Below are positions 2,579 through 19,362 of a DNA stretch of 20,406 bases, one piece after another. The notes under the pieces were generated by a model. That model was given only the letters and a program-made list of their open reading frames with translations, did no database searches and was not told where the DNA came from. The first letter of the stretch is position 1. Each line of letters opens with the position of its first letter. The DNA is from a virus: IMG/VR virus record IMGVR_UViG_3300042197_004601, positions 1 to 20,406 of that record, one strand, 5' to 3'. A program made the translations under genes and the position numbers.

Positions 2579-2658
2579 CTCTGTCTCCAATCTGAGTGTG
2601 GTGGGAGATCGTACTCTTCGTCGGCCGGTGCCGGGTTCTTGATGTTAGATTGATCCAT
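2575..2658 (-). CDS. 27-aa micro-protein
   Basis: From ATG 2658 to TGA 2577-2575, a 27-aa Pro/Asp-rich peptide starting MDQSNIKNPAPADEEYDLPP. It overlaps the end of the 133-aa gene by 14 nt and its stop overlaps the next start as ATGA. AGAGGA lies about 10 nt upstream, a little far. Without it the following gene would lack its upstream partner in the overlap chain, which supports it modestly. No function is visible. Confidence 0.5.
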   Translation of the reverse strand: MDQSNIKNPAPADEEYDLPPHSDWRQR

Positions 2659-3046
2659 GGATTTTCAGTCCTCTAAAAATCTTGTTCCAGGCTTCGTCGA
2701 TACACATCTTGGCTCGCACCAAGTCATCCTGGGCCATCAGTTCCTGTGCGTCACTCAGGTAGGAGTAGGCTTCGCCTTCGGGGTCGCCAAAGAAGCCACG
2801 CTCTTCGCCGGTGTAGAATCGCTGGATGGTGACTTTCACCCTGTTCAGGGTCTGGCGGGCATCTTCTAACTGGCCGCGGTTGGCTTCGGTCCAGGCCGAC
2901 ATCATCATGTCCGTCACGACTTTCTTAGGTGATCGGGTACGGAGATAACTGTCTACTGCCGCGTCCACATCCGCACGAAGAGCACCAAACATGCGGACCT
3001 GGGCCCGCTGTCGCGAATCCATCTGGTCATATGCTACTGTGGTCAT
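2645..3046 (-). CDS. Helical protein, first gene behind an early promoter (133 aa)
   Basis: A 133-aa, mostly helical, charged protein of unknown family, with SPKKVVTDMMMSAWTEANRG and MAQDDLVRAKMCIDEAWNKI as its most conserved-looking parts. The repeated Ala/Leu spacing of the C-terminal half recalls TPR-like helical pairs, but this is only an impression. AGGAGC is 5 nt before ATG 3046, and a strong sigma70-type promoter (3077-3106) lies just upstream, so this gene heads the transcript running into the small-gene chain toward the ligase. Early expression is inferred from that promoter. Confidence 0.85.
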   Translation of the reverse strand: MTTVAYDQMDSRQRAQVRMFGALRADVDAAVDSYLRTRSPKKVVTDMMMSAWTEANRGQLEDARQTLNRVKVTIQRFYTGEERGFFGDPEGEAYSYLSDAQELMAQDDLVRAKMCIDEAWNKIFRGLKIHGSI

Positions 3047-3076
3047 TTCTGCTCCTAATTTCTAACTGTATGTCTT

Positions 3077-3106
3077 ATTATACTCGAAATTGGGATTTCT
3101 GGTCAA
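3077..3106 (-). promoter_or_regulatory. Sigma70-type early promoter P1
   Basis: On the minus strand, TTGACC (3106-3101), an 18-nt spacer, then TATAAT (3082-3077), a near-perfect vegetative promoter. It lies 30 nt before the ATG at 3046. It is one of five similar copies in the window whose spacers also agree (AAATCCC then a TTTCG-like run). Confidence 0.85.
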
Positions 3107-3114
3107 CCGGGGGT

Positions 3115-3141
3115 AAAACGCTAGGTTAGTAGGCACTAACC
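3115..3141 (-). repeat. Inverted repeat upstream of P1 (possible terminator or operator)
   Basis: A perfect 7-bp stem with a 4-nt loop (GGTTAGT-AGGC-ACTAACC at 3124-3141 on the plus strand), followed on the minus strand by TAGCGTTTTA. It contains the stop codon of the preceding 85-aa gene and sits directly before the -35 box of P1. A 16-base piece of it, 3115-3130, recurs exactly at 7652-7667 before P3. It could end the upstream transcript or bind a regulator. Confidence 0.55.
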
Positions 3142-5028: not shown

Positions 5029-5253
5029 CTAGCCCCAGTCTTTCTTGTCGCCGAACCGCTCGTTATCTTCGTAACCGGCCATGTAGGCTTTCCACTCTGG
5101 GCTATCGCGCTGGACCAGCACTTCCTCACTCTGGTAAGTGGCGCTGACGAAGAGGTGTGGGCGAGGTGGTCGATGGTAGTAAGAATCGGCTGATCCGCGA
5201 TCGTAGGCACCACCATGGCGGGTGTCGTATTCAGTTTCTAGAATTTCGGTCAT
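5029..5253 (-). CDS. Conserved phage protein with RHGGAYDRGSADSYY motif (74 aa)
   Basis: A 74-aa protein of a small family widespread in tailed phages. The signature RHGGAYDRGSADSYYHRPPR (12-31) and the end SPEWKAYMAGYEDNE then DKKDWG are recognisable, but the function is unknown. AAGGAG lies 6 nt before ATG 5253, and promoter P5 places its -10 box 28 nt before the ATG, so this is the first gene of a transcript. The end is 4 nt from the next start. Confidence 0.86.
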   Translation of the reverse strand: MTEILETEYDTRHGGAYDRGSADSYYHRPPRPHLFVSATYQSEEVLVQRDSPEWKAYMAGYEDNERFGDKKDWG

Positions 5254-5281
5254 CTCTGGCTCCTTGTATCATTGTTCCACT

Positions 5282-5310
5282 ATTGTAGCAGGCCTGTATT
5301 TTCTGGTCTA
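5282..5310 (-). promoter_or_regulatory. Sigma70-type early promoter P5 (weaker copy)
   Basis: On the minus strand TAGACC (5310-5305), a 17-nt spacer, then TACAAT (5287-5282), 28 nt before the ATG at 5253. Both boxes differ by one base from the other copies in the window and the spacer is one base shorter and less conserved, so it may be weaker. The -35 box follows directly after the stop codon of the preceding gene. Confidence 0.65.
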
Positions 5311-5499
5311 TCAGCCCTCCGTCCGGAAACGGTCGGCATAGTCTTCCGCATCCTCACGATGGGCGAACGGCCTCCATTCTACCAGCTCACCCGCGTCATT
5401 TTCCACGCTCACCACCCAGACCACTCGTTGTTCATCCGCGTCAAGGCTCACGGTGGTCCATAATCTGGGTGATGGGTCCAAGGGCAAGGGCACGGTCAT
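5311..5499 (-). CDS. Small acidic protein (62 aa)
   Basis: The true gene begins at ATG 5499 (MTVPLPLDPSPRLWTTVSLD), overlapping the previous stop as ATGA. The longer open frame to 5784 is a shadow of the 91-aa gene, with an Arg/Gly-rich composition typical of a wrong frame. The product is 62 aa, with a beta-rich first half (VVWVVSVENDAG) and a helical acidic end (REDAEDYADRFRTEG). The stop touches the -35 box of P5. Family not recognised. Confidence 0.76.
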   Translation of the reverse strand: MTVPLPLDPSPRLWTTVSLDADEQRVVWVVSVENDAGELVEWRPFAHREDAEDYADRFRTEG

Positions 5500-5771
5500 T
5501 GATCCACTTCGAACAGGATCACCTGATCTTTTTTGAACGGCGTTATCCATTCCGTTATGACTGAGATCCGCCGTATCCGGTGCCCTTCGATTTCGCCGCC
5601 CACGGCCAGGAACGGGCCACCGCTGGGATCCACGAAACCCAGGTCTGTCATGTCCACACCCGATGTGCCGTCCTTGCCTCCGAATCGCCAATACCGGAGA
5701 TCGCCCCGGATGGTGTATGTACCGGGACTGATCTCTTCGAACCGATATTCCACGCCGTGGCGGTTTTTCAT
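5496..5771 (-). CDS. Small beta-rich protein (91 aa)
   Basis: A 91-aa protein from ATG 5771, with GGAG 7 nt upstream and an ATGA overlap at each end. The sequence alternates beta-type stretches and Gly turns (GTYTIRGDLRYWRFGG; GFVDPSGGPFLAVGGEIEGH; VILFEVDQ), so it is probably a small beta barrel or sandwich. The open frame extends upstream to 6020, but that part overlaps the 72-aa gene and has shadow-like Arg-rich composition. No family is recognised; it is cytosolic, as there is no signal or membrane segment. Confidence 0.78.
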   Translation of the reverse strand: MKNRHGVEYRFEEISPGTYTIRGDLRYWRFGGKDGTSGVDMTDLGFVDPSGGPFLAVGGEIEGHRIRRISVITEWITPFKKDQVILFEVDQ

Positions 5772-5986
5772 CCAAGATCTCCAAAGGTCTCGGGTCGATG
5801 ATCCAATCGGTTGCCGGCGTCGTCGGAGTAAAACACCGCGTCCTCGTCCGTGATGGTCACGGCCAGATCTGAATGCAGGATGTCGTAGTCGGTGAACTCG
5901 CCCGAATCCGTGTACACGCGGAATCGGTATCGATGATCCCCGCAGTAGATAAGGTAGCCGGTGGTGCCCTGGGCCGAGATCTTCAT
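5768..5986 (-). CDS. Small acidic protein (72 aa)
   Basis: A 72-aa protein starting MKISAQGTTGYLIYCGDHRY at ATG 5986, the point where it overlaps the stop of the 29-aa gene as ATGA. The open frame to 6094 is an alternative but runs through the small membrane gene and gives an unlikely Cys/His-rich head (HVCRCCCSDICAHDH). The chosen product is beta-rich at the start and very acidic in the middle (DSGEFTDYDILHSDLAV; TDEDAVFYSDD). Acidic small phage proteins sometimes mimic DNA, which is only a thought here. Confidence 0.74.
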   Translation of the reverse strand: MKISAQGTTGYLIYCGDHRYRFRVYTDSGEFTDYDILHSDLAVTITDEDAVFYSDDAGNRLDHRPETFGDLG

Positions 5987-6072
5987 CGCTCGATCCACCA
6001 CGATATGATCGTGGGCACAAATATCGCTACAACAGCACCGACATACATGATCAGTTCTTGTGAGATATACAT
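5983..6072 (-). CDS. 29-aa membrane micro-protein
   Basis: From ATG 6072 to TGA 5985-5983, 29 residues starting MYISQELIMYVGAVVAIFVP and ending SWWIER, a single hydrophobic span with a charged tail. GGAG lies 7 nt before the ATG. It overlaps the end of the preceding gene by 22 nt and the next start as ATGA. Too short for standard gene finding, but supported by ribosome site and coupling. Probably sits in the inner membrane; role unknown. Confidence 0.6.
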   Translation of the reverse strand: MYISQELIMYVGAVVAIFVPTIISWWIER

Positions 6073-6266
6073 TGTTCCACTCCAAAATGTTCAAAGATAT
6101 TCAATGCTTCGTTGCGGGTGACCTTGCTGGCACACTCCTCAACGATCAACTCTGCAAATACTTCGAGTGATACATTTGGATCACCACACCATCCTTCTCC
6201 CCCACCCCATCTAGTCTTTTTCCATCCGGCGGTTTCTGCAAGTTCTCGGATCCGTTCGTTCATCAT
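6051..6266 (-). CDS. NERI/FAELIV-family small phage protein, copy 2 (71 aa)
   Basis: A 71-aa protein with NERIRELAETAGW near the start and EVFAELIVEECASKV in the middle, ending with IFEHFGVEQ. This is a common phage family of unknown function. It is a tandem paralog of the gene just upstream, which has NERIIKLGLESGM, KFAELIVRECAAV and VLKHFAVE in the same order. Two ATGs lie side by side (6266 and 6263); the first gives an ATGA overlap with the previous stop, the second matches the paralog's start. The ribosome site is weak. A GEGWCGDPNV stretch is specific to this copy. Confidence 0.84.
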   Translation of the reverse strand: MMNERIRELAETAGWKKTRWGGGEGWCGDPNVSLEVFAELIVEECASKVTRNEALNIFEHFGVEQCISHKN

Positions 6267-6484
6267 TCTACCGCAAAATGTTTGAGCACGAAATCACCGG
6301 GTACCTGCCATTGGTGGCTGTTGATGTTGGCCACTGCGGCACATTCCCGCACGATCAACTCCGCGAACTTGTTCAAGCATTCTTCATCGGCGTGGCCGCA
6401 CAGGAAATAGTGGCGTGGTGTTTCAAGATCCACATAGTTCAGCATGCCAGATTCTAATCCCAGTTTGATAATTCGTTCGTTCAT
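6263..6484 (-). CDS. NERI/FAELIV-family small phage protein, copy 1 (73 aa)
   Basis: A 73-aa tandem paralog of the following gene. Shared blocks are MNERI at the start, FAELIV-x-ECA in the middle and HF-x-VE at the end. Between them this copy carries RHYFLCGHADEECLNKF, with two Cys and two His residues. ATG 6484 overlaps the preceding stop as ATGA, with GGAGG 4 nt upstream. The family is common in environmental and enterobacterial phages but unassigned. Duplication followed by divergence is the simplest explanation. Confidence 0.84.
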   Translation of the reverse strand: MNERIIKLGLESGMLNYVDLETPRHYFLCGHADEECLNKFAELIVRECAAVANINSHQWQVPGDFVLKHFAVE

Positions 6485-6783
6485 GCTGCCTCCAGTTCCA
6501 GCACCTGGGCCGGATAACGGATCTCACCGTCCAACTCCAGTTGATCCTGCTCGAACGGACTGAGAGCCGAATCCTCCACCAACTGCCAGTCCAGGATGTA
6601 TTCTTCGGTCATGGCACCGGCATGTTCGATCCGATCACGCACCTGCTCCACCAGGAGGCCCGGGGCAGTCTTCAAGGGATCTACAGCCAGGATGAAGTAG
6701 TCTGACCCACCCTTGAACTTCCAGTAAGGATCGCACTCGGTGCCGTAGTTCTCGCGGTATTGTGTGGTGATCAAGATTTTCAT
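6481..6783 (-). CDS. Conserved phage protein, MKILITTQYRENYG family (100 aa)
   Basis: A 100-aa protein whose start, MKILITTQYRENYG, and following YWKFKGGSDYFIL are typical of a small family I recall from many T4-like phages; no function is known. The second half is helical and acidic (EQVRDRIEHAGAMTEEYILD). AGGAG is 5 nt before ATG 6783, and promoter P2 lies just upstream, so this gene opens a transcript of coupled small genes running to about 5311. The stop overlaps the next ATG. Confidence 0.87.
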   Translation of the reverse strand: MKILITTQYRENYGTECDPYWKFKGGSDYFILAVDPLKTAPGLLVEQVRDRIEHAGAMTEEYILDWQLVEDSALSPFEQDQLELDGEIRYPAQVLELEAA

Positions 6784-6812
6784 CTCTGCTCCTGTTCTTT
6801 CACTGTAGCCAT

Positions 6813-6842
6813 ATTATAGCCGAAACGGGGATCTCTGGTCAA
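6813..6842 (-). promoter_or_regulatory. Sigma70-type early promoter P2
   Basis: On the minus strand TTGACC (6842-6837), 18-nt spacer, TATAAT (6818-6813), 29 nt before ATG 6783. The TGA inside the -35 box (6841-6839) is also the stop codon of the upstream 66-aa gene, so gene end and promoter are fused. Spacer matches the P1/P3 pattern (GATCCCCGTTTCGGC). Confidence 0.84.
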
Positions 6843-7039
6843 CCGCGCAGTTGATCCAGGATCTGCCGCTGGAGTCGATCCACTTCCTCATTGTCGACAT
6901 AGAAATCCGTGCGCGGGTCCCAGTACCGGCCCTCCCGGGGGTCATAGTACAGCACCGCGCCCGAGGGATAGTGGAACGGTCCCTCCAAGCCCGGTCGTGG
7001 GCCATAACGGGTGTCCCGCTGGAATACTGTATAGGCCAT
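6839..7039 (-). CDS. Conserved small phage protein, YYDPREG family (66 aa)
   Basis: A 66-aa protein beginning MAYTVFQRDTRYGPRPG, with AVLYYDPREGRYWDPRTDFY (29-48), a pattern I know from unassigned small proteins of T4-like cyanophages and relatives. The start at 7039 lies 2 nt after the stop of the previous gene and has GGAG 9 nt upstream; the open frame to 7078 only repeats that gene in another frame. The final codons form part of promoter P2. Rich in Tyr, Asp and Arg; no membrane segment. Confidence 0.78.
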   Translation of the reverse strand: MAYTVFQRDTRYGPRPGLEGPFHYPSGAVLYYDPREGRYWDPRTDFYVDNEEVDRLQRQILDQLRG

Positions 7040-7041
7040 GC

Positions 7042-7305
7042 TCAGGAACTCCAAAAAGTTTCGCTGCGGGGCGAACAATAGTAAGGCGTATCATAGCGTT
7101 CCTGGAACTCCTCACCGGTCAGGGCATTGCGGCTGGTGACCATGGTGGCATACACATGGAAGCGATAGCCCTGGCTGGAGGGATACCGTTTGGAGTACAC
7201 CTCATGCAAGGCCCCGCTGTCCGCGGTTGAATGATCCACTTTCCTCACCAGGCGCTCGCCGTTACGGGTGCGGCGGTCTCGTTTGTAAAGTTCTACTGTG
7301 AGCAT
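7042..7305 (-). CDS. Conserved small phage protein (87 aa)
   Basis: An 87-aa protein with LYKRDRRTRNGERLVRKVDH near the start, then GYRFHVYATMVTSRNALTG, EEFQERYDTPYYCSP and SETFWSS at the end. I recall the same series of blocks in unassigned proteins from T4-like phages. AAGGAG is 6 nt before ATG 7305. The gene lies between the 89-aa and 66-aa genes in the P3 transcript. Basic N-terminal half; no catalytic motif seen. Confidence 0.83.
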   Translation of the reverse strand: MLTVELYKRDRRTRNGERLVRKVDHSTADSGALHEVYSKRYPSSQGYRFHVYATMVTSRNALTGEEFQERYDTPYYCSPRSETFWSS

Positions 7306-7315
7306 CAGGTTCTCC

Positions 7316-7585
7316 TTAGGCGAATTCGTAGAATTTCACGGCAGGGTCCAGCTTCTGCAGTTCACGGGCACATCGCGTGAGCATGCGGTATTTACGATCC
7401 ACCTCGCCGCGGCTCAGCTCACCGTCGCAGGTGAGATTCTCGGGGCTCAGGGCTGAATCGATGTCTTCCGCGATCCGCTGCCGATCCGCTGGGTTGGCCA
7501 GACTCAGGGGTGGCTGGCGGAACATGGCACGGATGTGGTTGCGTTCTTGTACATATTTCACTAGGTTCACTGAGTTGATGTTCAT
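7316..7585 (-). CDS. Small helical protein behind promoter P3 (89 aa)
   Basis: An 89-aa protein starting MNINSVNLVKYVQERNHIRA. ATG 7585 is chosen because AAGGAG lies 6 nt upstream and because the start then sits 29 nt after the -10 box of P3, the same spacing as at the other promoters. An in-frame GTG at 7606 would start inside the mRNA leader. Helical segments include NPADRQRIAEDIDSALSPEN and SRGEVDRKYRMLTRCARELQ. Function unknown. It begins a three-gene transcript. Confidence 0.8.
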   Translation of the reverse strand: MNINSVNLVKYVQERNHIRAMFRQPPLSLANPADRQRIAEDIDSALSPENLTCDGELSRGEVDRKYRMLTRCARELQKLDPAVKFYEFA

Positions 7586-7614
7586 GCTCTGCTCCTTGTT
7601 ATTCACTATACCTA

Positions 7615-7644
7615 ATTATAGCCGAAATCGGGTTTTTTGGTCAA
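7615..7644 (-). promoter_or_regulatory. Sigma70-type early promoter P3
   Basis: On the minus strand TTGACC (7644-7639), 18-nt spacer ending in CCCGATTTCGGC, TATAAT (7620-7615). It lies 29 nt before ATG 7585. The spacer shares its last 12 or so bases closely with P1 and P2. Confidence 0.85.
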
Positions 7645-7647
7645 CCG

Positions 7648-7685
7648 CCCCAAAACGCTAGGTTAGTGTGCGCTTACTTTTGGGG
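7648..7685 (-). repeat. Inverted repeat upstream of P3, shares 16 bases with the P1 repeat
   Basis: Plus-strand CCCCAAAA (7648-7655) pairs with TTTTGGGG (7678-7685), and the inner CGC/GCG can pair across the loop. Bases 7652-7667 are identical to 3115-3130 upstream of P1. The stop codon of the 57-aa gene (7676-7674) lies inside, just as the 85-aa gene's stop lies inside the P1 copy. A transcription terminator or a regulator site fits. Confidence 0.55.
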
Positions 7686-7847
7686 CTTGGGACCTACCCC
7701 GCAGGCGTAGAAGAAGCGATCCGTGTCGAAACGGCTGTTGGCTTCTCGGCAGGCTGACGCTACTGCTGTGGCGGCCTGCAGGCGTGCGTGGGGATCTAGG
7801 ATGGCGTCGATGTAACGGGCGAGCAGTTCGAAGTGTTTCTTAGACAT
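7674..7847 (-). CDS. Conserved 57-aa phage protein
   Basis: From ATG 7847 to TAA 7676-7674. The 57-aa protein begins MSKKHFELLARYIDAILDPH, continues with ARLQAATAVASACREANSRF and ends DTDRFFYACGVGPKPQK. This combination (an N-terminal MSKKHFE helix and a C-terminal RF-x2-ACG) is typical of a tiny protein family in many tailed phages, function unknown. AGGAG lies 7 nt before the ATG, and promoter P4 is 29 nt upstream. The stop lies inside the inverted repeat before P3, so this looks like a single-gene transcript. Confidence 0.83.
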   Translation of the reverse strand: MSKKHFELLARYIDAILDPHARLQAATAVASACREANSRFDTDRFFYACGVGPKPQK

Positions 7848-7876
7848 GCTGTGGCTCCTGTAGTTGATGATGTCTA

Positions 7877-7906
7877 ATTATAGTGCGAATGGGAATTTTT
7901 GGTCAA
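7877..7906 (-). promoter_or_regulatory. Sigma70-type early promoter P4
   Basis: On the minus strand TTGACC (7906-7901), 18-nt spacer, TATAAT (7882-7877), 29 nt before ATG 7847. It separates the virion-type genes at 7923-10027 from the small-gene region and is the first early promoter met in the direction of transcription. Confidence 0.85.
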
Positions 7907-7922
7907 CCACCAAAATCCAGGG

Positions 7923-16595: not shown

Positions 16596-17308
16596 GCGTG
16601 GTTCAGGTAGTATTGCTCTACCCTGGCCCACCAACGATCGCGCCACTGATCAAATTCCTCGCCCTCTATGATCCACTCTTGATATTGGGGTTCAGTGATG
16701 ATGTTGCCCTGATCGTCCACATCGGGCTTGGCGCACATCAGGATCACGCCACGCTGTATCCGGGTGCCATGCACTTCGTTGTGTGCTTCTGCGTAGGCCG
16801 CTAGCTGCAGGAAATAGTCCTCGATCCACTCAGTGCGCTTGGGTCGATTGGTCTGCTTGAAATCCATGATGGCTTCTGAACCTTCATGCAAGCCCACGCA
16901 GTCCGTGGTACCTGCATAGATTGAGGGGAAATACAAGGGCACTTCTGTGCCCCAGAATTCATCAACTTTTATCAAACCTTCTTGTATGACCTTTTGGGCC
17001 ATGGCATGGCTGGGCCAGAAGAAAGGATTGGTACCGCGATCTCGCTGTGTGCCGGTCGTGACCCAGTGCTCGAGATAGCTGTGCATCCTGGTACCACGGT
17101 TGGCAGCCTCGGTGGTGATCTGCTGGGCTTTTTCGTGCCCTACTCGCTGCTTCCAGTTTTCCAGCGCGATGCGTTTTTCCTGTGGTTTGGTTCGGTCTAG
17201 GATGGTGGTCACTGACGGTAGTTTGCGACCGTCGGGAGTGGCATAAAGCCGTTGTCCATCCACGCTCTCTCGGGTCAGCGGAGCATACTGATATCGTTCA
17301 GTGATCAA
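16592..17308 (-). CDS. PD-(D/E)XK nuclease, Cas4/RecB-like
   Basis: Likely a metal-dependent DNA exonuclease or end-processing enzyme in phage recombination or genome degradation. The 238-aa protein shows the RecB-type order: GTRMHSYLE with His76, TEVPLYF (Glu122), AGTTDCVG with Asp136, MDFKQT where Asp149 and Lys151 form the catalytic core, and QLAAYAEA (Gln168, Tyr172). No four-Cys cluster of Cas4 is visible, so it probably lacks the Fe-S site of true Cas4. The start codon is TTG (17308), overlapping the iscA stop as TTGA; no ATG lies nearby before residue 75. The stop codon forms part of the next promoter. Confidence 0.88.
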   Translation of the reverse strand: MITERYQYAPLTRESVDGQRLYATPDGRKLPSVTTILDRTKPQEKRIALENWKQRVGHEKAQQITTEAANRGTRMHSYLEHWVTTGTQRDRGTNPFFWPSHAMAQKVIQEGLIKVDEFWGTEVPLYFPSIYAGTTDCVGLHEGSEAIMDFKQTNRPKRTEWIEDYFLQLAAYAEAHNEVHGTRIQRGVILMCAKPDVDDQGNIITEPQYQEWIIEGEEFDQWRDRWWARVEQYYLNHA

Positions 17309-17634
17309 ACTCGGAATGATTCGCCGCAGCCGCAGCGATCCTTTTCTTGTGGGTTGATGAATTCAAAACCTTCGTTGAGGCCTCGCTGTTGATAATCTAT
17401 GGTCATATCTGAGAGATACACCAGATGCTCGGGTTTTATGTAAACACGCACACCAGCCACGTCGAAGTGTCTGGTACAAATCTGTGAACCTTGCTCCTGG
17501 TCCACATACTCTAAAGTATAGGCCAAGCCAGAACAGCCTGTGGTCCTGATTCCTATTTGGATTCCAAGACCGCGTCCCCGCCGGGTTATGGCAGCTTTGA
17601 TTTTTTGTGCTGCTAAATCAGTGATTGAAATCAT
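17305..17634 (-). CDS. iscA: A-type Fe-S carrier IscA/ErpA-like
   Basis: Carries iron or [2Fe-2S]/[4Fe-4S] clusters to target enzymes. From ATG 17634 it is 109 aa, as E. coli IscA (107). The three conserved cysteines are present: Cys34 in RTTGCSGLAYTLEYVD, and Cys101 and Cys103 in CGCGESF at the C-terminus. The open frame to 17730 adds a Ser/Ile/Arg-rich stretch that is only overlap with the upstream gene. The start lies 17 nt inside the end of the glycosyltransferase-like gene and its ribosome site is weak. It belongs with the broken iscU about 1 kb upstream. A viral gene helping to maintain Fe-S supply during infection is a reasonable inference. Confidence 0.93.
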   Translation of the reverse strand: MISITDLAAQKIKAAITRRGRGLGIQIGIRTTGCSGLAYTLEYVDQEQGSQICTRHFDVAGVRVYIKPEHLVYLSDMTIDYQQRGLNEGFEFINPQEKDRCGCGESFRV

Positions 17635-18610
17635 GATAATAGTTCTCAATAATCCGATGATAGTGCTGACGATTCCATTGCGCGATCGTGCCAAGATCGG
17701 CCAGCAGCTGGTTTTGCTGTGCATGCTCATGGATCGCAGTCACAGCAGCACAGATTTTGTCAAATCTGATATCAGGGTCGTGCTCACAGTCATAGCTTTC
17801 GTCAATGTAATCTCCAAAAGTACGGAAACCCATGGTTCTCAGCTGTTGCAACTGCCCGGATGTACCATACAGCAGGAAAGGTTTACCTGCTGCCAGACAT
17901 TTGGCGGTCTTCTCTGTAAACCAACCTTCGCTGTAGGTGTTTGTTTCGATCACAATTTCGATTCGATATCGGCCAAACAATTCATGATAGACCGGTAAAC
18001 AGGCCAGAGAAGACACACAGCCGTTGAAATGACTTGCCAGATCATGATGATGTGTGCGGCATGCTGCCCAGTCAACAGCATCCTGAAAGATTTCATCTCC
18101 TGGCGCCATTTCAAATTCTACAAAATCTTGTCCAGGCTGGAATATCACGAAACTATCATTGGGGAAGTGCGTGACTAAAAAATGTGCCATCAACAGTCGT
18201 GAAGGCATGAATCTGCCATAGGCTGCGCCAAATAATTTGGCATCCTCATCGACTCTACAAAGATCAATGCGCAGCAATTCTGCTGTCTGTTGGAAAAAAG
18301 GCGTGGGATATGTTTCCACCGCGCACCATTCAGATTCGAAACGGGGATAATGATCTACCATATGACAAATCACGCGATCCGGAGATAAGCCATGGTTTTG
18401 CACAATGATTTCTAGCACGCGGTCAAGTGCAGTGAATGATATGGGTTCGCCGTCCGGTAATACCAAGATTAATTTACGATCTCGGATCTGTTGTCTGTGC
18501 TCGTGTAACAGCCTCAACAGCGTGCCAATACGATAAAGATATCCATCATGTTTGATGAAATCGTTAACGACCACGGTTACTGCGTGGGGATCAATCTGTA
18601 CACAGCTCAC
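17618..18610 (-). CDS. Glycosyltransferase-like protein (GT10-type C-terminal motif)
   Basis: A 330-aa protein. The C-terminal block ETNTYSEGWFTEKTAKCLAA (222-241) then GKPFLLYGTSG looks like the sugar-nucleotide-binding region of fucosyltransferase-type (GT10) or related enzymes, with F-x-TEK as the marker. A middle block, FGAAYGRFMPSRLLMAHFL (127-145), often appears in these phage enzymes. It might modify phage DNA, the host surface or virion sugars; the sequence does not say which. Start is GTG 18610, overlapping the iscU stop as GTGA. It interrupts the iscU-iscA pair, and its codon use looks more AT-rich than iscU's second half (about 43% G+C in one 60-base sample), so it may have inserted later. 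Confidence 0.7.
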   Translation of the reverse strand: MSCVQIDPHAVTVVVNDFIKHDGYLYRIGTLLRLLHEHRQQIRDRKLILVLPDGEPISFTALDRVLEIIVQNHGLSPDRVICHMVDHYPRFESEWCAVETYPTPFFQQTAELLRIDLCRVDEDAKLFGAAYGRFMPSRLLMAHFLVTHFPNDSFVIFQPGQDFVEFEMAPGDEIFQDAVDWAACRTHHHDLASHFNGCVSSLACLPVYHELFGRYRIEIVIETNTYSEGWFTEKTAKCLAAGKPFLLYGTSGQLQQLRTMGFRTFGDYIDESYDCEHDPDIRFDKICAAVTAIHEHAQQNQLLADLGTIAQWNRQHYHRIIENYYHDFNH

Positions 18611-18870
18611 TGTGCCTGGCGTTTCTTGCGGTAATCTTCGATGGCGGCCTTGATGGCGTCCTCGGCCAGAATCGAACAGTGTATCTTCACGGGCGGCAAG
18701 GCCAGTTCCTGGGCTATAGTGGTGTTCTTGATGGTTGCTGCTTCATCCAAGGTCTTGCCTTTGACCCATTCTGTGACGAGGCTGCTAGATGCTATGGCCG
18801 AACCGCAGCCATAGGTTTTGAACCGGGCGTCGGTGATCACACCATCTTCCACCATGATTTGGAGTTTCAT
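18607..18870 (-). CDS. iscU: IscU-like Fe-S scaffold, 3' part of a frame-broken gene
   Basis: The larger piece of a broken iscU. It gives 87 aa from ATG 18870 (MKLQIMVEDGVITDARFKTY) and matches E. coli IscU from residue 42 to the end. It keeps the second and third cluster-binding cysteines in TYGCGSAIASSSLVTEWVKG and in PPVKIHCSILAEDAIKAAI, and the LPPVK motif read by the HscA chaperone. CGGAG lies 5 nt before the ATG, so internal start is possible. The open frame runs to 18939, but residues before 18880 are the wrong-frame reading of the first half. By itself this piece lacks Cys37 and Asp39 of the active site. Confidence 0.82.
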   Translation of the reverse strand: MKLQIMVEDGVITDARFKTYGCGSAIASSSLVTEWVKGKTLDEAATIKNTTIAQELALPPVKIHCSILAEDAIKAAIEDYRKKRQAQ

Positions 18871-18880
18871 GACGTCTCCG

Positions 18881-18997
18881 TCATCCGCACGCTGGGGCGC
18901 CAACCATACCGGTCCCAACGTGCGAGTTCTCCTTATCAAATGATCCTACATTTCTCGGATTGTTATAATGATCCAAGACTTTTTCTGAATAAGCCAT
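18881..18997 (-). CDS. iscU: IscU-like N-terminal part ending in early stop (38 aa)
   Basis: From ATG 18997, with AGGAGG only 5 nt upstream, 38 residues (MAYSEKVLDHYNNPRNVGSF ... GMVGAPACG) match the start of IscU almost exactly, then TGA stops translation just after Cys37-Gly38. The next expected residues, Asp-Val-Met-Lys, lie in the +1 frame. Comparison with the usual GGAGACGTCATG suggests an extra GGA-GAC repeat plus one inserted T (GGATGACGGAGACGTC). Removing the T restores ACG-DG-DVMK. The first 24 codons are AT-rich at the third position (8 of 24 G/C), unlike the second half (about 26 of the first 40), suggesting a mosaic gene. Either a pseudogene, a recoded gene, a split gene or a sequence error. 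Confidence 0.78.
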   Translation of the reverse strand: MAYSEKVLDHYNNPRNVGSFDKENSHVGTGMVGAPACG

Positions 18998-19026
18998 GTT
19001 TTCCTCCTACAATGATATTACTTGAT

Positions 19027-19033
19027 TATTTAC
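19027..19033 (-). promoter_or_regulatory. T4-type late promoter candidate (GTAAATA)
   Basis: Minus-strand AAGTAAATAATC ends 29 nt before the iscU ATG. The TAA (19032-19030) is also the stop of the 110-aa gene. It is less like the T4 consensus than the copy at 16589, so this is tentative. Confidence 0.35.
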
Positions 19034-19362
19034 TTGATGTCAATGGCTCTTTTGGCCATTGAATCTACTGTTTTTTGCGCTTGATCCACGGTCATGGTCA
19101 CGGGTACCACATCCGATCCCTGGAAAAGTATGTTGGGGCCTTCGATCCTGGCGATCACTGCATTGAGTGGTGGTTGTGCTGAGAGTTCGGCCAGGCGATC
19201 TGCTGTGACGCTGATGCCCATGTTTGAGGCCAGTTTGAGGAATGCTTGGGTGCTGATGGTGCGTGCAGCGTCTGTGTCTTCCGCGCGTCCTAACAGGAAC
19301 TGGGCCAAGGCCGTGAGCTTGATCTGATCACCGTCGGCACCGGCCACTTCACGGATCAGCAT
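19030..19362 (-). CDS. Conserved phage protein linked to virion genes (110 aa)
   Basis: A 110-aa protein starting MLIREVAGADGDQIKLTALA. The middle FLLGRAEDTDAARTISTQAF and then NMGISVTADRLAEL are patterns I recall in the small protein that follows the scaffold-like gene in environmental T4-like phages. The end is a probable beta strand plus helix (VVPVTMTVDQAQKTVDSMAK). Start shares one base with the previous stop (TAATG). It could be a head-assembly partner, by position and recurrence only. The tail of the gene carries a TAAATA element. Confidence 0.8.
   Translation of the reverse strand: MLIREVAGADGDQIKLTALAQFLLGRAEDTDAARTISTQAFLKLASNMGISVTADRLAELSAQPPLNAVIARIEGPNILFQGSDVVPVTMTVDQAQKTVDSMAKRAIDIK

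Follow-up and report, generated by a model that had tools for sequence, protein, structure and literature searches.

Five putative early promoters with a conserved spacer in a T4-type phage contig and its environmental relatives

The sequence of a promoter's spacer, which separates the -35 box from the -10 box, is usually considered of minor importance, except beside the -10 box. Among the closest described systems, the early promoters of phage T4 show consensus sequence in addition to the sigma-70 elements (PMC2988021), and CBB, a related jumbo phage, has 18 early-type, RpoD-like promoters that are mostly clustered before short hypothetical open reading frames (ORFs) and preceded by an UP-like element, along with ATAAATA late promoters (PMC5259590). 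By sequence analysis we examined a family of five promoter sites, P1 to P5, in a viral contig of 20,406 bases, IMG/VR record IMGVR_UViG_3300042197_004601 (hereafter, the window), which represents part of a T4-type phage genome. The five sites are probably early promoters of this phage, read by the host polymerase with a sigma-70-type factor, and their spacer conservation is real, specific to one promoter class and without an accepted reader. The nearest named matches of the NrdA and NrdB proteins of the window belong to phages of the T4 superfamily, including many jumbo phages, and the phage may itself be a jumbo phage. Its environmental relatives in IMG/VR reach protein identities of up to 84-91%, and several of them are 316-353 kb in length.

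Four of the sites are exact TTGACC-N18-TATAAT sequences on the minus strand, located at 3106-3077 (P1), 6842-6813 (P2), 7644-7615 (P3) and 7906-7877 (P4). Each is directly preceded by GG, with which they span 3077-3108, 6813-6844, 7615-7646 and 7877-7908, respectively. P5 (5310-5282, minus strand) is weaker, reading TAGACC-N17-TACAAT with a TGC extended -10. The initial annotation had grouped these sites as a family and proposed a matrix scan as the check. A matrix built from the relatives alone, with the window excluded, returned exactly the same five sites (P2, 54.4 bits; P3, 44.4; P1, 37.9; P4, 21.8; P5, 16.6), separated by a wide gap from the rest of the window (6 bits or less) and from shuffled windows (maximum -6.9). 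The 18-nucleotide spacer claimed for the four strong sites is exact in P1 to P4 and confined to them; the P5 spacer has 17 nucleotides, and the relatives have both lengths, 17 being the commoner. Similarly, the repeated spacer interior is far above shuffles in P1 to P4 (summed pairwise identity 71 vs. 28.2 +/- 4.5 in 200,000 shuffles, p = 5e-6), although the right, -10-proximal half of the P4 spacer is atypical and fits the shared block poorly. Two further claims held without amendment. The distance from the -10 box to the ATG is 30 nucleotides for P1, 29 for P2, P3 and P4, and 28 for P5, and the leaders that fill it (3047-3076, 6784-6812, 7586-7614, 7848-7876 and 5254-5281, respectively, all on the minus strand) carry an AGGAGC ribosome site; GGAGC occurs at all five promoter-linked starts vs. 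1 of the remaining 31 start positions listed. In all likelihood P5 truly belongs to the family in degenerate form, since orthologs of its gene (cluster c9) carry canonical copies in the promoter sets of 10 relatives.

The class is better defined by its copies in the relatives, which are non-independent samples and were in several cases chosen for matching the motif. The consensus of the 17-nucleotide form is GG TTGACC ARAAATnCCCATTTTGC TATAATA, and the 18-nucleotide form ends in ATTTCGGY TATAATA; after TATAATA come four or five unspecified nucleotides, TATAGTAA and a leader rich in A, then AGGAGC and ATG. Exact TTGACC-N-TATAAT sequences in the fetched loci have a spacer of 17 (n = 160) or 18 (n = 74), with 0-6 at each other spacing between 10 and 25. 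Seven relatives of 316-353 kb have 17-22 copies each, on one strand only and with no hits to the reversed pattern. In 301 of 376 promoters of relatives the -10 box lies 28-32 nucleotides from the ATG, most often 29-31, and in about a third (119 of 336) the promoter overlaps or abuts the upstream stop codon. P2 is built in the same way, as its -35 box (6837-6842) includes the TGA stop of the upstream gene. The spacer-containing pattern was found in none of 84,980 species genomes vs. at least 120 stretches of viral contigs; therefore, it is a property of phages, and a bacterial or host promoter family was rejected on the same count.

Named phages with the same promoter were also sought by blastn of the consensus units, and among the matches listed none extended over most of the unit. 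These matches, to Enterococcus, Lactobacillus and Vibrio phages among others, mainly covered the -10 box and leader. TTGACC-17/18-TATAAT itself is absent from, or present in few copies in, T4, XaC1, GAP32, DLP6, Munch, MIJ3 and MinM2. In the Enterococcus, Lactobacillus and Vibrio phages (hits H42-H66), which are unrelated, the -10 and start-region part matches intergenic sites with E values down to 4e-3, perhaps reflecting convergent start regions of strong promoters.

The spacer of these promoters holds 12.4 bits of information in the 17-nucleotide form and 18.0 bits in the 18-nucleotide form in loci retrieved through protein similarity or with only the two boxes as the pattern (12.7 and 19.3 bits when only family loci are counted). 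Values from an enlarged locus set were discarded as biased because those loci had been fetched with the spacer-containing pattern. The relatives' spacers, at 14.0 and 21.7 bits, compare with shuffles of at most 1.1 and 2.5 bits. In contrast, TTGACA-17-TATAAT promoters of the same loci have 2.1-2.3 bits in the spacer and 0.7 bits in the leader (vs. 4.6 in the TTGACC class); they lack the spacer block and the leader motif, and GG is rarer before them. The spacer-bearing TTGACC sites are thus a class apart from the TTGACA promoters and not generic sigma-70 sequence. The suggestion that the spacer is conserved beyond the needs of sigma-70 was borne out both against chance and against these TTGACA promoters.

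How does this class compare with known promoters? Like T4 early promoters (GTTTAC/GTTGAC, TGn, TATAAT), it has sigma-70-type boxes, a conserved G directly before the -35, many copies at small ORFs and consensus sequence that sigma-70 does not require (PMC2988021, PMC1524935). The near-consensus -35 with its conserved G is present as GGTTGACC, together with TATAAT. The extended -10 TGn occurs in the 17-nucleotide form (TTTTGC) and in P5, vs. CGAG, CGGC or GCAC just before the -10 in P1 to P4. Downstream ORFs are small and mostly novel; they fall into 88 gene clusters with a median of 92 amino acids, and the promoter-linked genes of the window gave no Pfam match. Unlike T4 early promoters, the -35 ends in C and no UP-element signal is seen. 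At -40 to -44 there is no A-rich run, and upstream columns reach at most about 0.3 bits in the 17-nucleotide form, with scattered columns upstream of the GG of up to 0.43 bits in the 18-nucleotide form (n = 62). The spacer differs as well, with about 12-19 bits that include the -35 side vs. about 5.3 bits, mostly beside the -10, for T4 early-type sites; the TTGAC-type sites of the jumbo phages Munch and GAP32 have 1.1 and 0.7 bits, all three being rough yardsticks from sets picked by box pattern and partly by eye. The likeness to CBB lies in the clustered promoters before short ORFs and in late promoters of a second type in the same phage, and the difference in the UP-like element. T4 middle promoters, with a MotA box at -30, share an element at about -35 to -20 with a slightly variable distance to the -10. 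However, TTGACC is kept intact here, the block is not TGCTTTA, and no MotA homolog (phrog_1345) was found in any of seven relatives by a search that scored the T4 positive control at 1.3e-99. Unlike T4 late promoters, the class has a -35 box and a TATAAT -10, and TATAAATA forms a separate set in the same loci (67 coding-strand sites vs. 5 on the opposite strand).

Host RNA polymerase of the sigma-70 type is the most likely reader of the class, because a TTGAC-type -35 needs a sigma factor with region 4, and none was detected in the relatives. From host-sigma reading, the small-ORF context and the precedents of T4 and CBB we infer early timing; host sigma-70 use and promoter strength are inferred as well. 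The unit would be a compact composite pressed against the end of the preceding gene. In order, it would consist of GG-TTGACC; ARAAATnCCCATTT, placed at constant distance from the -35; a -10, TATAATA, that is extended or nearly so (TGC in the 17-nucleotide form and CGGY in the 18-nucleotide form); TATAGT as an initiator at about +1; a leader rich in A; AGGAGC; and ATG. With about 20 of these units in each genome, the phage could express small genes, probably for host takeover, all at once; late genes would use TATAAATA and the phage's own gp55, and the conserved spacer would be an integral part of promoter recognition. Some points weigh against this account. The conserved UP element that marks T4 early promoters is not seen. 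Moreover, according to a review, polymerase is not known to contact the spacer specifically at any point upstream of -15 (PMC2613000), which leaves the block at -29 to -20 without an accepted reader if polymerase acts on its own. With 12-19 bits retained across hundreds of promoters in a single phage lineage, in loci where other promoters ignore the spacer, the class offers a natural, testable case of spacer readout, and the conserved unit is a reliable marker for mapping putative early genes of uncultured phages, many probable takeover genes among them.

Promoter strength is known to vary with spacer sequence (PMC2613000, PMC8695583), and it seems somewhat more likely that polymerase itself benefits from the spacer, through DNA shape or a tuning of its own binding, opening and escape, than that a separate factor occupies the site. 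The strongest alternative, which we consider a substantial but lesser possibility, is that the block is the site of a phage-encoded, virion-carried or host DNA-binding factor that would activate the class, or later shut it off, while sigma-70 uses the -35 and -10. In the 18-nucleotide form the extra base fits best at spacer positions 15-17, immediately ahead of the -10; the block therefore holds a constant distance to the -35 and not to the -10. This register argues for a factor, as do the lack of a known polymerase contact in that stretch and the same-locus TTGACA promoters that do without block and leader motif. However, each of the 104 GGTTGACC sites that carry the left block is accompanied by a -10, and there are no solo copies; an independent operator was rejected on this ground. 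A dyad operator was likewise rejected, since pairing within the block equals column expectation. The failure to find MotA also counts against a factor, as does that of AsiA, although the AsiA search matched none of its controls either. In its most specific form, with ARAAATnCCC as a factor recognition site on an otherwise complete sigma-70 promoter that labels about 20 genes as an immediate-early regulon, in an environmental jumbo-phage lineage that is widespread, the idea is a tentative one.

A phage-encoded sigma factor as reader is improbable. The class is distinct, bacterial and archaeal genomes do not contain its pattern, and CBB has been reported to encode a sigma-70-like factor (PMC5259590). 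Nevertheless, Sigma70_r4 (PF04545) was found in none of the seven relatives by a search that recovered 14 of 14 controls, and a Sigma70_r2 search of the relatives gave one sub-threshold hit only. A gp55-type late sigma is present in all seven relatives, but gp55, according to the literature, reads TATAAATA and needs no -35.

Even less likely is a mobile cassette of promoter plus leader that spreads by copying, as the initial annotation had supposed. The unit does precede 88 gene clusters, P1 and P3 share 16 nucleotides more upstream, and orthologs occur with or without it. The window genes at 6839-7039 and 7042-7305, for example, are without the unit that their orthologs have. However, upstream flanks (P1-P3 excepted) and coding starts are unrelated, with z near 0-2, and spacer identity within a genome (0.570) is no higher than between genomes (0.559; label permutation, p = 0.2). 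Each gene family also occurs once per locus, never with two members in one locus, and the freely varying positions of the unit (spacer position 7 and leader positions 2 and 4) suggest that sites are under selection rather than recently copied. Orthologous promoters share 0.680 identity vs. 0.622 for non-orthologous ones, and both spacer lengths occur within 17 of 27 ortholog clusters. Promoters have been gained and lost, which fits selection with turnover and not cassette copying. Finally, that these are ordinary sigma-70 promoters whose spacers resemble each other by chance or base composition would suit the near-consensus TTGACC and TATAAT boxes, but it is refuted by the p value in the window, the distance of the relatives from shuffles and the internal control of the same-locus TTGACA promoters, and deserves virtually no credence.

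The 16 nucleotides shared by P1 and P3 are an identical repeat, ACTAACCTAGCGTTTT (minus strand), at 3115-3130 and 7652-7667 of the window, just upstream of the two promoters. The repeat overlaps terminator-like hairpins, and AACCTAG recurs upstream of several relatives' promoters. One hairpin of the upstream gene lies directly before P1 (3123-3142, minus strand, -9.3 kcal/mol), and another spans the upstream stop codon directly before P3 (7648-7685, minus strand, -16.8 kcal/mol). A general fusion of terminator and promoter was rejected, as stable upstream hairpins are found mostly where the upstream stop is more than 25 nucleotides away (z < -2 in 40% of such cases vs. 6% where the stop abuts the -35). 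Because stability tracks the distance of the upstream stop, the hairpins are part of the preceding gene rather than of the promoter unit.

The genes behind the promoters, all on the minus strand, have no assigned function. They lie at 2645-3046 behind P1 (133 amino acids; cluster c2, with 12 matches to promoter-bearing orthologs of relatives), 5029-5253 behind P5 (74 amino acids), 6481-6783 behind P2 (100 amino acids; cluster c6), 7316-7585 behind P3 (cluster c11) and 7674-7847 behind P4 (57 amino acids, beginning MSKKHF; cluster c7, best identity 91%). The P4 protein has homologs of 51% identity in the freshwater 65-kb cyanophages MinM2, Pag-Yong1 and Pra-JY27 (E 9e-5), which are unrelated to this phage, and weaker homologs in Mycobacterium phages. 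The genes of the window, all on the minus strand, include those for a DNA ligase, NrdA, NrdB, a glutaredoxin-like protein, an exonuclease, and tail-spike-like and structural proteins.

At 18607-18996 of the window an IscU/NifU-like gene (NifU_N match) appears to be frameshifted: the frame of the start ATG stops at GCGTGCGGATGA and the rest lies in another frame. The break could be a sequencing error or real. An IscA-like protein is encoded nearby, at 17305-17730. A promoter-like site, TTGACA-17-TAATAT, precedes the IscU start at 19015-19043, and in relatives TTGACA/T-17-TATAAT stands before an ATG-GCTTATTCTGA start of what looks like the same gene. The TTGACA sites form a second class of promoters, which does not carry the spacer motif.

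Outside the window, a conserved element of about 200 nucleotides was found in the fetched loci at L071:8782-8987, L105:13762-13964, L113:14481-14699 and L095:13478-13690, with 19 distinct copies in all. It lies downstream of the ligase gene, just before an ATG and behind a TTGACA-17-TATAAT promoter, and the copies inspected have stops in all three frames. The element had no Rfam match at gathering score. An alignment of 15 copies supports a fold of 30 pairs, 13 of which are kept through changes on both sides, and the element is a candidate for a new structured RNA or leader.

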